DNA from: Alphaproteobacteria bacterium
Lineage (GTDB): Bacteria > Pseudomonadota > Alphaproteobacteria > UBA8366 > Aestuariispiraceae
Assembly (NCBI GenBank): GCA_033344895.1
Contig: JAWPMN010000001.1
Coordinates: 3,976,001-4,040,000 of the forward strand
Length of the DNA: 64,000 nt
Reading direction: 5' to 3'
Part shown: piece after piece, positions 57,728-62,598 of the stretch
How the letters are laid out: each line of letters starts with the position of its first letter
How positions within the stretch are numbered: the stretch's first letter is position 1
Notes under the pieces: generated by a model
Seen by the model: the letters and a program-made list of their open reading frames with translations, nothing else
What the model was told of the DNA's origin: nothing
The model's database searches: none
Made by a program: the position numbers and the translations under genes

Positions 57728-58597
57728 CTACTGCCCGCCCCCCAGTTCATGAACATAAACCGTCAGCATCTTGATGGTGACCGGGCTGAGCCGGTTTTCC
57801 CAGGCGGGCATGACGCCATGGCGAGGCTTCGCGATCTGCGTCGTGATCTCCTCTTCCGTAGCGGCATAGAGCCAGACCGCATCATTCAGGGCCGGGGCGC
57901 CGAGTTCCGGATCGCCGTCACCGGATTCCTTGTGGCATGCCGCGCATTGCTCCGCATAAACCGCCTGGCCCGACCGGGCGGCCTCGGCATCATGCGCCAG
58001 CCCTGCCAGACGAAGGACATATTGGGTGGTCGCCTCGATTTCAGCCCGGCTCAATATGCCGTCACCGAAGGCGGGCATTTCTGAATAGCGGGTATCTTCA
58101 TCCTGTTCCCAGCGGATGCCGTGGCGGATCGTTGCGCTGATGGCGTTCAGATCCCCCCCCCAAAGCCAGTCGTCGTCCTGTAGATTGGGATATCCCGGTC
58201 CGCCGGTCGCTCCCGTACCATGACAGGCGGCACAGTTTTCCGCGTATGCCGCGCTCCCCCCCGCGACGGAGAAGGCCAGCAAGGACTGATCACCGCGGAT
58301 CGCGGCAAGATCGGAATCCGCGACCCGTGCCAGCAGGTCGCCCTGGGCGTCCCTTGCGGCTGCCAATGTTTCGGCAACTTCGACCCGCGCGGAATAATCC
58401 GAGGTACCGGCAAAATAGGTCGTTCCGAGGGGAACCGATGGAAATATGACCATATAGGCGATCGAGTAGACGATTGAGGCGTAGAAGACGTATAGCCACC
58501 AGCGCGGCAGCGGGTTGTTCAGTTCCCGCACCCCATCCCATTCGTGACCGGTCGTATCGACCCCCGTCACCTGATCCTTCTCAACTTTGGTTGGCAT
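57728..58597 (-). CDS. ccoP: cbb3 cytochrome oxidase subunit III (CcoP)
   Basis: 289 residues. The N-terminus carries the CcoP motif region (HEWDGVRELNNPLPRWWLYVF), one or two membrane helices and two c-type haem motifs, CAACHGTG and CAACHKES. It feeds electrons from the bc1 complex or cytochrome c to CcoN. The ATG at 58597 is preferred because GAGGAGG lies seven bases upstream; a TTG at 58612 would be the alternative. It lies 11 bases after ccoQ. Confidence 0.95.
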   Translation of the reverse strand: MPTKVEKDQVTGVDTTGHEWDGVRELNNPLPRWWLYVFYASIVYSIAYMVIFPSVPLGTTYFAGTSDYSARVEVAETLAAARDAQGDLLARVADSDLAAIRGDQSLLAFSVAGGSAAYAENCAACHGTGATGGPGYPNLQDDDWLWGGDLNAISATIRHGIRWEQDEDTRYSEMPAFGDGILSRAEIEATTQYVLRLAGLAHDAEAARSGQAVYAEQCAACHKESGDGDPELGAPALNDAVWLYAATEEEITTQIAKPRHGVMPAWENRLSPVTIKMLTVYVHELGGGQ

Positions 58598-58608
58598 CAC
58601 ATGCCTCC

Positions 58609-58815
58609 TCAATTCCGGCGGTCGCGACGGCTGTCCGCCCGGCGTGCTGCAACCTCGTCAGCCGCCCCCTCTTCAAGGGGAATGCGCGCGGCGTGGTCCA
58701 TCTGTGCCTGACGCATCCGGGTTGGCCACAGGGCATAGGCAATGGCGATCAGGAACATCAGCAGCAGCCACGCGTTCCATCCGGCATTCGCGAATTCGAC
58801 AATCATGTCCCACAT
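58609..58815 (-). CDS. ccoQ: cbb3 oxidase subunit IV (CcoQ)
   Basis: 68 residues. One membrane helix (residues 13-30, AWLLLMFLIAIAYALWP) is followed by a charged tail (RRADSRRDRRN). It is typical of CcoQ, which stabilises the complex and in Rhodobacter relays redox signals. It lies between ccoO and ccoP with short gaps. Confidence 0.93.
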   Translation of the reverse strand: MWDMIVEFANAGWNAWLLLMFLIAIAYALWPTRMRQAQMDHAARIPLEEGAADEVAARRADSRRDRRN

Positions 58816-58829
58816 GGGTTTGTTCCCCC

Positions 58830-59558
58830 TTACTGGCGCAGTGCGTCGGCGTCGTACTGGCTGAAATCAACCAGCGTACCGAGCATCTGCAGATAGGCGA
58901 CAAGGGCATCCATTTCCGTCAGGCGCGCCGGGTCACCGTCAAAGTCGCCGACAACGGCCCCCGGATATCGGGACTGAATTGCGTCCCAATCTCCGTCAGG
59001 GTCGGCCTGCCCCTTCATATCTGCGGCGGCCTCGACGATCATTTGCTGGGTGTAGGGCACACCGACATGGGTCAGTGCCGTCAGATGATCGGCGATTTCC
59101 TGGGTATCCAGTGTGCGGTCTGCGAGCCAGGGATAGGCCGGCATGATTGATTCCGGCACGACCGCGCGCGGATCGACCAGGTGCAGTACCTGCCAATCGT
59201 TGGAATATTTCCCGCCGACACGTGCCAGATCCGGCCCCGTGCGCTTCGACCCCCACTGGAACGGATGGTCGTACATGCTCTCCGCCGCAATGGAGTAATG
59301 GCCGTAGCGTTCCACCTCGTCCCGGAACGGCCGAACCATCTGCGAGTGACAGTTGTAGCAACCTTCGCGGATGTAGATGTTCCGGCCGGCCAGTTCCAGC
59401 GGCGTATACGGCCGCACGCCATCCACCTCTTCGATCGTGCTTTCGATCGTGAACAGCGGCACCAGTTCCACGATCCCGCCGATGGACACCGTGATCAGGA
59501 CCAGGACGGTCATCAGGGAAACGTTCGTTTCGATGAACTTGTGCTTGATTAGCGACAT
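58830..59558 (-). CDS. ccoO: cbb3 oxidase subunit II, monohaem cytochrome c (CcoO)
   Basis: 242 residues. An N-terminal membrane helix ([19 protein letters not shown]) is followed by a single haem c motif CYNCHSQ in the [13 protein letters not shown] context, typical of CcoO. The axial methionine would lie in the C-terminal half (SIMPAYPWL). ccoN precedes it by 18 bases. Confidence 0.96.
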
Positions 59559-59576: not shown

Positions 59577-61043
59577 TCACTCGGCCGCGGCCGGCGCCGG
59601 CTGAAACCGCTCGACCGGCGTTTCGCTGCGCAGGTCCCCGCGCATGGTGCGATACAGGTTGTAGACCATGATCAGCGAGCCCAGCAGGAAGAAGACCCCG
59701 CCGATCGCCCGGATCACATAGAACGGATGCATGGCTTCCACGGTTTCGACAAAGCTGTACTGAAGGAAACCCAACTCGTCGTAGGACCGCCACATCAGCC
59801 CCTGCAGAATTCCCGACACCCACATTGATGTGATGTAGAGGATGATGCCGATGGTCGAGATCCAGTAGTGCCAGGCAACGAGACGAAGGCTGTACAGGCG
59901 CTCACGATTCCAGAGTACCGGCACAAGGTAATAGACCGCCCCGAAACTGATCAGAGCGACCCAGCCAAGGGCACCGGAATGCACATGGCCGATAGTCCAG
60001 TCGGTGTAGTGGCTCAGTGAATTGACCGCGCGGACCGACATCAGGGGCCCTTCGAAGGTCGACATCCCGTAAAAGGCGACGGCGGTCACCATGAAGCGCA
60101 GGACCGGATCTGTCCGCAGTTTCTCCCAGGCACCGGACAGGGTCATGATGCCGTTGATCATGCCGCCCCAGCTGGGCATCCACAGCATGACCGAGAAGAC
60201 CATGCCCAATGTCTGCGCCCATTCCGGCAATGCGGTGTAATGCAGGTGGTGCGGACCGGCCCAGATGTAGAGGAAGATCAGCGACCAGAAATGCACGATG
60301 GACAGTCGGTAGGAATAGACCGGCCGGTTCGCCTGTTTTGGAATGATGTAATACATCATCCCCAGAAAACCCGCGGTCAGGAAAAAGCCGACGGCATTAT
60401 GCCCGTACCACCATTGGGTCAGCGCGTCCTGAACGCCGGAAAAGGCCGAATAGGATTTCGCCCCAAACAGTGAAACGGGCATGGCCAGGTTGTTCACGAC
60501 ATGCAGCAGCGCAACGGTGACGATGAAAGCCAGATAGAACCAGTTGGCGACATAGATATGCGGCTCCCGGCGGCGTATGATCGTGCCCAGGAACACGATC
60601 AGGTAAACCACCCAGACCAAGGTCAGCCACAGGTCCACATACCATTCCGGTTCAGCATATTCCCGACCCTGGGTAACGCCGGTGACGTAGCCTACGGCCG
60701 CCATGACGATGAACAGCTGATAACCCCAGAACAGGAACATGGCGACGTCGCGCCCGCCGTAAAGCGGCACCCGACAGGTTCGTTGAACCACATGCAGAGA
60801 GGTTGCGAACAACGCGCACCCTCCGAATGCAAAGATCGCTGCGGATGTATGCAGCGGCCGCAGCCGTCCAAAAGACAGCCATGGCAGATCGAAGTTCAGG
60901 ATGGGGAACGCCAACTGGAAGGCGATCGTCACGCCCACCAGAAAGGCGACGACACCCCATAGGACGGTCGCAACCGTGAAGTACCGGACTACGGTTTCAT
61001 CGTATTGCGGCGCAGCCCCCAATTCGGCATGCGTAGCTTTCAT
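59577..61043 (-). CDS. ccoN: cbb3 oxidase catalytic subunit I (CcoN)
   Basis: 488 residues with about twelve membrane helices; contains low-spin haem b and the haem b3-CuB site that reduces oxygen with high affinity. Motifs include [31 protein letters not shown] and [12 protein letters not shown] with the haem and copper histidines. ccoN leads the ccoNOQP operon. A class II FixK/FNR promoter lies upstream (61097-61138). The usual assembly genes ccoGHIS are not in this window. Confidence 0.97.
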
Positions 61044-61096
61044 CTCTCATATCTCCAACCGCGTGCGGATCGCCCGGGGGCGACTCAACTGTGCGC

Positions 61097-61166
61097 TTTA
61101 TGACCTGCGCCGCATCAAGCTTCATTGATGCAGGTCAAGGCGGGGTCGGAAATCGGCGGTCATAAA
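61097..61166. promoter_or_regulatory. FixK/FNR box with two divergent class II promoters
   Basis: The box at 61125-61138 is TTGAT-GCAG-GTCAA, which matches TTGAY-N4-RTCAA in both directions. Toward ccoN a -10 CATAAA sits at 61102-61097, so the box is centred at -41.5 with a start near 61090. Toward the plus strand CATAAA at 61161-61166 gives exactly the same -41.5 spacing, with a start near 61173. The surroundings of the two -10s mirror each other (GGTCATAAAG). Low-oxygen control by FixK or FNR is the family expectation. Confidence 0.8.
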
Positions 61167-61212
61167 GGCGCACCGGAAACGATCCGGTCATACCTGCATC
61201 GGGAGTAAGACA

Positions 61213-61377
61213 ATGACGAGTTGGGGTTTGGGAATTGTAATGACCGGACTGGCCCTGATGGGGCTTATCCTCGCCGCGGGCGCAGCGGACCAGACCATGG
61301 AATGGGTCGGGTTGCTGCTGATGCTTTTCGGAGTTGGCTATACCTACGGGCTGATCGTCCAGAATACCGGTCGTTAA
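61213..61377 (+). CDS. Small two-helix membrane protein, divergent from ccoNOQP
   Basis: 54 residues, ATG 61213 to TAA 61377, with GGGAG about eight bases upstream. Two hydrophobic segments, about residues 3-22 (GLGIVMTGLALMGLILAA) and 31-50 (WVGLLLMLFGVGYTYGLIV), are joined by a short polar loop (GAADQTME). It shares the FixK/FNR box with ccoNOQP at mirror-image spacing, with a leader of about 40 bases, so it should be induced together with the oxidase. Its stop overlaps that of the convergent oxidoreductase gene by three bases. I do not recognise the family. A role with cbb3 oxidase is inferred from this. Confidence 0.72.
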   Translation: MTSWGLGIVMTGLALMGLILAAGAADQTMEWVGLLLMLFGVGYTYGLIVQNTGR

Positions 61378-62498
61378 GCCTGGAGCCGGCCCAGCACTTC
61401 GGTTGCGATCGCCAGCGACGAGGTCAGGCCCGGGCTCTCGATACCGCAAAGCGCAACCAGCCCCGGAATGCCGTGTCGTTCCGGCCCGTCTATCTGGAAG
61501 TCGTCGCCGACGGCACCTTGCGGGCTCAGCTTTGGGCGGATGCCGGCATAGCCGGGGCTGAGCGCGCCGTCCGCCAGGTCCGGATAGTATCGACGGATGG
61601 CAGCGTAAAAGGCCTCCCCCCGGGCCGGATCGACCTTCAATGTCGCTTCTCCGTTCAGCCCGTCGATCCATTGGGTGTCCGGACCGAACCGCATGCCGCC
61701 GCCCATGTCCAAGGTGACATGGACGCCCAGCCCGGACTTCACCGGCACCGGGTAAATAAGATGCCGGAATGGCGCCTTGCCAGCGGTGATGAAATAGTTC
61801 CCCTTGCAGAAGTATTGACCGGGTACCAGGGCCGCCGGATAGCCCGAAAGGTTCCTGAGAAACGTCTGACTGTGCAAACCGGCGGCGACGACCACCTCGC
61901 GCGCCGAAAGCGACATCGGCGATGCGCCCCCCGTCTTGATCAGAATGCGCCCGTCGCCCAGGGCCCCGGCCGTCACCGGCGTTTCGAAGGCCAGCATCGC
62001 CCCCGCCGCTTCCGCATCGCCCTGATAGGCCAACATCAGCGCATGACTGTCGATGATCCCTGTCGAAGGCGACAAAAGCGCCTTCGTGCAACGCAGGGCC
62101 GGCTCCATCGCCCTCGCCTCCTGACCCGATACCCAGACCAGGTCATCCGCGCCGACCACACCATTGGCACGGGCCTTTTCCAGGATTTCATTCAGAACCG
62201 GCTCTTCCTCTGCGGAGGTGGCGACAATCAGCTTGCCGCAGCGACGGTGCGGCACACCGCGCGCCTCGCAGTATTCGTAGAGCCTTCTGCGGCCCTGGAC
62301 GCACAGCTTCGCCTTCAAACTGCCCTGCGGATAGTAGATGCCGGCGTGAATCACTTCGCTGTTGCGGGAACTGGTTTCCGTGCCGATCGCATCGGCGCGT
62401 TCGATCACGACCACGTCCCGTCCCGACTCGGCGAGAATCTTTGCACAGGCCAGACCGACCACGCCGGCGCCGATCACGACGGTTTCAACCTCATCCAT
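61374..62498 (-). CDS. lhgO: L-2-hydroxyglutarate oxidase-like FAD protein
   Basis: 374 residues. The start MDEVETVVIGAGVVGLACA at 62498 begins with the FAD-binding motif. The LhgO group features are visible: SSRNSEVIHAGIYYP, a substrate loop VHVTLDMGGGMRFGPDTQW, and GIESPGLTSSLAIA near the end. LhgO oxidises L-2-hydroxyglutarate to 2-oxoglutarate with electrons to quinone. The exact substrate is inferred. It is divergent from the metC-like gene and its stop overlaps that of the 54-residue gene. Confidence 0.87.
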   Translation of the reverse strand: MDEVETVVIGAGVVGLACAKILAESGRDVVVIERADAIGTETSSRNSEVIHAGIYYPQGSLKAKLCVQGRRRLYEYCEARGVPHRRCGKLIVATSAEEEPVLNEILEKARANGVVGADDLVWVSGQEARAMEPALRCTKALLSPSTGIIDSHALMLAYQGDAEAAGAMLAFETPVTAGALGDGRILIKTGGASPMSLSAREVVVAAGLHSQTFLRNLSGYPAALVPGQYFCKGNYFITAGKAPFRHLIYPVPVKSGLGVHVTLDMGGGMRFGPDTQWIDGLNGEATLKVDPARGEAFYAAIRRYYPDLADGALSPGYAGIRPKLSPQGAVGDDFQIDGPERHGIPGLVALCGIESPGLTSSLAIATEVLGRLQA

Positions 62499-62598
62499 TC
62501 CGCTGTTCCCCGACCAGGATTTGCAATTCCGACGAAGGCGCATAGGCTGCTCGCCGACGGGTGCGACAACAAGCAGAAATCAAAGGGTGGATCGGCGC

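Follow-up and report, generated by a model that had tools for sequence, protein, structure and literature searches.

The window, the whole 64,000-nucleotide stretch of alphaproteobacterial DNA analysed here, contains a small gene read away from ccoNOQP whose product is probably a detached CcoN N-terminal hairpin, and a candidate accessory subunit of the cbb3 oxidase under the oxidase's own FNR switch. The cbb3 oxidases serve bacterial respiration at very low oxygen, for example in root nodules. The small gene is related to a piece that in many other bacteria is fused to the front of CcoN, and so probably encodes a component of the enzyme that has been missed. The features concerned are listed below by position in the window.

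57728..58612, minus strand: ccoP (FixP_N, E 2e-22; Cytochrome_CBB3, E 4.7e-27); the true start may lie slightly inside
58609..58815, minus strand: ccoQ (FixQ, E 1.2e-9)
58830..59558, minus strand: ccoO (FixO, E 1.7e-97)
59577..61043, minus strand: ccoN, short form, 488 aa, without the N-terminal two-helix extension (COX1 domain, E 1.2e-122; N-terminus read)
61097..61102 (TTTATG on the plus strand), minus strand: putative -10 hexamer CATAAA for ccoNOQP at class II distance from the box; transcription predicted to begin near 61090
61125..61138, common to both directions: FNR-type box TTGATGCAGGTCAA
61161..61166, plus strand: putative -10 hexamer CATAAA for the small gene at class II distance from the box; transcription predicted to begin near 61173
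61213..61377, plus strand: small gene for a 54-aa protein with two predicted membrane helices, homologous to the CcoN/FixN N-terminal two-helix extension and proposed as a cbb3 accessory subunit

A ccoS gene is present elsewhere in the window's genome. On the far side of the small gene, an FAD-dependent oxidoreductase gene (DAO, 61374-62543) converges on it and overlaps its end by four bases.

The eight divergent proteins were built into an HMM, which was searched against 5,176 open stretches upstream of 130 ccoN loci and matched N-terminal extensions in frame with CcoN (E 2e-8 at L073, 2e-7 at L030 and 7e-6 at L079); the best reversed decoy of the stand-alone search stood at E 0.13. Profile-profile comparison of 30 stand-alone with 55 fused sequences gave a Prob of 96.6 (E 4.9e-10, 68 columns), and comparison with 39 extensions from genomes missed by the stand-alone model gave 96.4 (E 1.4e-9). 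At the main threshold, two hydrophobic segments were seen in 25 of 25 stand-alone sequences and in 8 of 8 others. Judged by sequence, with decoys and core controls, the small protein is a homologue of the CcoN/FixN N-terminal two-helix domain. It is encoded by a separate ORF on the other strand from ccoN and is not covalently part of CcoN; it is therefore described here as a detached homologue, and not as the CcoN domain itself.

That unrelated hydrophobic hairpins should resemble one another in this way by chance is very improbable. Short two-helix hydrophobic segments are prone to false matches, and the rhizobial-type extensions taken alone matched weakly (Prob 60.8, E 8e-5). Against this, neither CcoN-core segments nor reversed sequences matched, all 12 of the former remaining at a Prob of at most 1.8 and the reversed extensions at 0.8. 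Moreover, 22 genome matches lie in frame before CcoN, albeit in related and not independent genomes. Conserved residues point the same way: the alignment of stand-alone proteins (A3) has an invariant D26 and an almost invariant A24, and in the extended CcoNs D37 hardly varies.

The small protein of the window reached no Pfam or NCBIfam cut-off (DUF3789 at E 0.11 and DUF6249 at E 0.53, both below cut-off), and the stand-alone proteins gave only scattered sub-cut-off matches in these two collections. A tblastn search with two stand-alone proteins gave no match in the plasmid collection; tblastn also missed the small gene of one locus, L004, which the search with the 54-aa protein and the HMM search (as L015) both find. 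CcoQ/FixQ and CcoS/FixS were considered as identities, and neither PF05545 nor PF03597 was among the matches of the window's protein or of the 25 A3 members; both were dropped, and so was CcoM. CcoM, which has one membrane helix, is likewise a small membrane protein linked to a cbb3 oxidase. It is set apart by size and helices, not by sequence, being a 36-aa subunit of the Pseudomonas stutzeri cbb3 oxidase (PMC10433244, available text), against 54 aa and two predicted helices here. Among the matches listed in the open-licence PMC literature, neither the stand-alone genes nor their homology to the CcoN extension were described, and both are unreported as far as these searches reach. Of the texts consulted, PMC7876108 alone mentions the extra CcoN helix; the available portion of PMC6431628 has no occurrence of 'CcoN' or 'N-terminal'.

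The extension also occurs in the CcoN sequences of two solved oxidases. A profile of extended CcoNs (A4, 33 of 45 sequences included) aligned from its position 4-5 with chain n of 6xkw, the CcoN of Rhodobacter capsulatus, and with chain t of the alphaproteobacterial 9g83, and with the CcoNs of 3mk7, 9g6b and 8smr, by contrast, the match starts at position 62-66; the extension region of the two former chains is homologous by this profile. Whereas the hairpin is a separate gene in the window, in 6xkw chain n and 9g83 chain t it is an N-terminal extension of CcoN (TMH0). The first aligned residues are 57 and 65, respectively, the ordered lengths are 471 of 532 and 470 of 539, and the extension seems to be unmodelled in both deposited chains. 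For R. capsulatus CcoN, one more helix at the N-terminus, lying on the outer edge close to TMH3/TMH4, was fitted tentatively and not deposited; the available text counts one extra helix (PMC7876108), in contrast to the two predicted in a model of the fused CcoN of L073. In that model the helices span 12-34 and 38-64 with a local pLDDT mostly of 80-91 (mean pLDDT 73.9, pTM 0.79). VIA-align and Foldseek placed the model on CcoN cores, which is uninformative for the hairpin. The stand-alone alignment searched against the PDB gave no credible match, only 6g6q_A at E 0.13, and the search did not reach the extended CcoNs deposited there.

The occurrence of the two forms was analysed in a class-wide sample of 387 genomes, with CcoN called at E 1e-100 and family members at E 1e-3. 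CcoN was found in 170 genomes and a match to the stand-alone model in 108; 93 had both, 77 CcoN only, 15 the stand-alone model only and 202 neither. The CcoN N-terminus was sorted in 148 of the 170, the 22 without a listed place being left out; where a genome has more than one CcoN, the listed copy decided its class, and 22 fused assignments were taken from coordinates (in frame, same strand, close) and the remaining sortings from the DNA. Eighty-three genomes carried a short CcoN and 65 an extended one. A stand-alone copy occurred in 62 of the 83 short-CcoN genomes (within 10 kb of ccoN in 47, not so in 15), in contrast to a single fused genome (G421) out of 65, with a Fisher P of 3.8e-22 that counts relatives. 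Two genomes classed as short (G124 and G189) also have a long frame, of 554 and 556 aa, which matches the hairpin model and is probably a second, extended CcoN. Since 21 of the 83 short-CcoN genomes show no small gene, it is not essential to every cbb3 oxidase.

Several loci were assigned individually. The truncated L023 and the duplicates L060 and L062 were left out, and L125 was also left out of the tree; L103 and L110, with one hydrophobic segment, were moved from fused to short, L110 having a separate gene. G148 and G315, with one segment each, were counted as fused, and G343 and G277 were assigned to the short class by hand. Twenty further stretches were drawn, with L223-L231, L235, L238 and L239 left out. 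In a quick tree of CcoN, all 54 fused rows fell into one clade (1 change, support 92), and on this placement the fusion probably happened once. Because the fused CcoNs form one clade, the Fisher P overstates independence and the complementarity may rest on few events; as proof of many independent events it was dropped.

At the level of the order, the 25 genomes with CcoN comprised 8 with a short CcoN and the small gene, 9 with an extended CcoN and no stand-alone copy, 7 with a short CcoN and no gene, and 1 truncated; the match in G038 is its own CcoN extension and not a stand-alone copy. In the window's genus, three species have a short ccoN together with the small gene, two have a fused ccoN without it and one has a truncated ccoN. 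One genus thus holds two ccoN types (G003 and G005 versus G000, G001 and G004). In the CcoN tree the extended type falls in the rhizobial-like part, together with other members of the family, a placement suggestive of gene replacement.

The search of the 130 ccoN loci placed the small gene in four kinds of position: next to ccoN and divergent from it, directly upstream on the same strand, at a distance of 1-1.5 kb, or in frame as the beginning of CcoN itself. The place of ccoN was listed for 84 of the 93 genomes with both CcoN and a match to the stand-alone model. The match lay in frame just before CcoN in 22 of them (the related genomes mentioned above), adjoining upstream on the same strand in 15, adjoining and divergent in 7, within 10 kb in 25 and unlinked in 15. 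At 29 of 30 distinct loci where a stand-alone gene is nearby (the exception being L043), the small gene has an FNR-type box on its upstream side, as read in its own direction, sometimes with another gene in between. At L156 and L159, the two closely read loci in which the small gene lies some 6 kb beyond ccoN on the downstream side, ccoS comes immediately before it (FixS match confirmed for L156). Because members also occur in 15 of the 217 genomes without a CcoN match, one pair of them next to genes for a histidine kinase and a PEP mutase, the family extends beyond the oxidase.

Other neighbours recur. A DUF2189 membrane gene lies between the FNR box and the small gene, or adjoins it, at L036, L041 and L150 (by Pfam), and L046, L047, L053 and L061 resemble these loci by eye. 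In the window's own genome an FNR-type box precedes a DUF2189 domain (C1:1595937) by about 300 bp, and DUF2189 may belong with the microoxic oxidase as another partner. At L144 (by Pfam) and, by eye, at L143, the small family stands beside a histidine kinase (HATPase_c) and a PEP-mutase-like gene; by eye, too, a kinase-like gene was seen at L142, L145 and L152 and a mutase-like one at L141, and the kinase/mutase group was also found in genomes without a CcoN match. The two-helix unit is in places repeated within one open frame, with two copies in L147 and L149 and three in G176:C9:10112-10774.

In the window, the box TTGATGCAGGTCAA differs at one position from the FNR-type palindrome TTGATNNNNATCAA. 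Each CATAAA lies 29.5 bp from the box centre at 61131.5, with an offset of 22 from the box end on both sides, which bears out the earlier note's claim of an identical hexamer at -41.5 spacing on either side. Predicted starts 7 nt beyond each hexamer, at 61090 (minus) and 61173 (plus), place the box at -41.5 both ways, the class II position, and are 83 bp apart. The mirrored flanks described in the note are likewise present, GGTCATAAAG standing in register on both arms around the box. As to whether such symmetry could arise by chance, a mirrored in-register run of at least 10 was found at 4 of 63,880 centres in the window, the box centre among them, which is unusual, although the test is post hoc. 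CATAAA itself is rare in the window (4 on the plus and 2 on the minus strand), and the core TTGATNNNNRTCAA occurs at 8 places in the whole genome. In the corresponding gap of a related species (G004, locus L011), the mirrored flank reads CGGCGTCATAAA on both arms, as against GGTCATAAAG on both arms in the window (61085-61178). Both arms may appear to have changed together, in a comparison of two species in which chance is possible.

A search of 59 genomes with the 54-aa protein matched 9 of them at E <= 0.01, the window's own included; one match (G022, E 0.0065, within a 389-aa frame) was left out, giving eight genomes. In all eight, window included, the small gene is kept head-to-head with ccoN, so that the divergent gene of the earlier note is real; the other seven proteins are 38-81% identical to the window's. 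Two further divergent cases in the class-wide sample, G078 and G124, are outside this set. An FNR-type box lies between ccoN and the divergent gene in 8 of 8. In contrast, both exact CATAAAs are found in only two of the eight genomes (G000 and G004). G001 keeps the ccoN-side hexamer alone, and the other five (G006, G009, G010, G021 and G030) have neither. Among relatives the exact plus-strand CATAAA is thus kept in G004 only, being absent from G001 and these five; of the conservation that the note proposed to check, that of the small gene held and that of the exact plus-strand -10 largely failed.

A weaker form of the -10 is nevertheless evident at the class II position. Likeness to TATAAT was scored by position across 60 offsets in the eight divergent loci, with a permutation test, and the class II offset was the best of 60 on both sides (P = 0/20,000 on the small-gene side and 0.0005 on the ccoN side). 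Without G000 and G004, the small-gene side remained at rank 1, tied (P 0.0019), and the ccoN side at rank 4, tied (P 0.036). The claim that one box drives two class II promoters is thus borne out as regards the box and a -10-like signal on each side, and not as regards the exact hexamer pair. Taken as a group, 98 other boxes upstream of cco genes also showed a -10 peak at the class II offset, and did so on either side. Of the 101 nearest boxes, the eight included, 16 reached at least 3 matches in both directions, 32 only towards ccoN, 29 only on the back and 24 in neither direction; about 21 two-sided boxes are expected if the sides are independent, and there is no positive box-by-box linkage. 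Two-way use of cco boxes may, on these sequences, be common as a group. Because the two-way signal occurs at other cco boxes as a group, unlinked box by box, symmetry alone was dropped as the finding.

The best HTH_Crp_2 protein of the genome (E 5e-19) has an N-terminal cysteine cluster, as an FNR-like regulator does; these cysteines presumably bind a cluster. Because of them, the regulator may be FNR instead of FixK. One of the 8 TTGATNNNNRTCAA sites lies about 600 bp from the HTH of this protein and, by arithmetic, roughly 100 bp upstream of the frame start. In E. coli, 19 of 23 promoters directly activated by FNR and with a known start have the site at -41.5 +/- 4 (PMC3688515, available text). 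The window has the same type of box and the same spacing from box to -10 (its starts being predicted), and differs in that one box would serve both directions and the flanks are mirrored.

The pseudo-symmetrical core elements of E. coli bidirectional promoters overlap. Such promoters likewise hold two divergent starts in one DNA region, and they use these core elements both ways, whereas the window has two separate -10s flanking one activator site (PMC12825309, available text). The window's promoter is a variant of the known class II and bidirectional designs. The 'equal, simultaneous' induction suggested by the earlier note is not supported: by analogy with the E. coli bidirectional promoter in which a CRP site at -40.5 of one arm blocked the divergent arm, explained by polymerase competition (same source, in the part available), alternating and not simultaneous firing would be expected at the window's box.

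In many other Alphaproteobacteria the two-helix hairpin is fused to the N-terminus of CcoN (FixN). In the window's lineage CcoN is short, and we propose that the hairpin is a separate polypeptide there, read in the opposite direction from the same FNR box. With falling oxygen, FNR would bind the box and activate a class II promoter on either side, such that oxidase and hairpin would be produced under one signal, single DNA molecules probably firing in one direction at a time. As an accessory subunit, the hairpin would then lie next to CcoN in the membrane, at the site where the extra helix of R. capsulatus was tentatively seen, with a possible role in stability, assembly or supercomplex contact.

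Two other readings bear on separate parts of this proposal. In one, which we consider rather unlikely, the small gene is homologous to the CcoN extension, and its product acts in assembly or regulation within the microoxic regulon without being a subunit of the finished oxidase; the fused clade would have recruited it once as a tether. Members in the 15 genomes without a CcoN match, and unlinked in 15 with one, fit such a factor, as do the loci where the small gene forms a unit with DUF2189 or follows ccoS, an assembly gene, and the single clade of fused forms. Linkage within 10 kb or fusion in 69 of the 84 genomes speaks for a closer tie to the oxidase, and the near absence of a stand-alone copy from the fused genomes (1 of 65) fits replacement of the small gene by the fused form.

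The other reading, which is unlikely, concerns the promoter: only the ccoN side would work, the plus-strand CATAAA would be a by-product of the symmetry of a palindromic activator site and promoter, and the small gene would be read weakly or from elsewhere. The exact plus-strand hexamer is indeed found in only 2 of 8 genomes, window included, a backward -10 signal is seen at other cco boxes too, and activation of one arm can repress the other (PMC12825309, available text). However, in the eight loci it is the small-gene side that has the stronger positional signal, also without the nearest two (P 0.0019), and the small gene lies downstream of a box in other arrangements as well (29 of 30). The detached hairpin, expressed from the oxidase's box, remains the preferred reading.

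On a broader scale, the chances seem evenly balanced that alphaproteobacterial cbb3 oxidases have an unnamed two-helix element, made either as a stand-alone subunit controlled by the oxidase's FNR box or as the N-terminal part of CcoN, the two designs being separated by a single fusion event and the window's promoter acting as a symmetric two-way switch that keeps enzyme and subunit under common control. If the detached-hairpin reading is true, a function would be found for a small gene outside the curated families, and the CcoN N-terminal hairpin, which seems to be missing from the models of two solved structures, could be given a role open to test. Deleting, tagging or moving the stand-alone gene leaves CcoN itself intact, and comparison of the fused and separate forms would be a clean route to distinguish between assembly, stability and supercomplex contact as functions of the hairpin.
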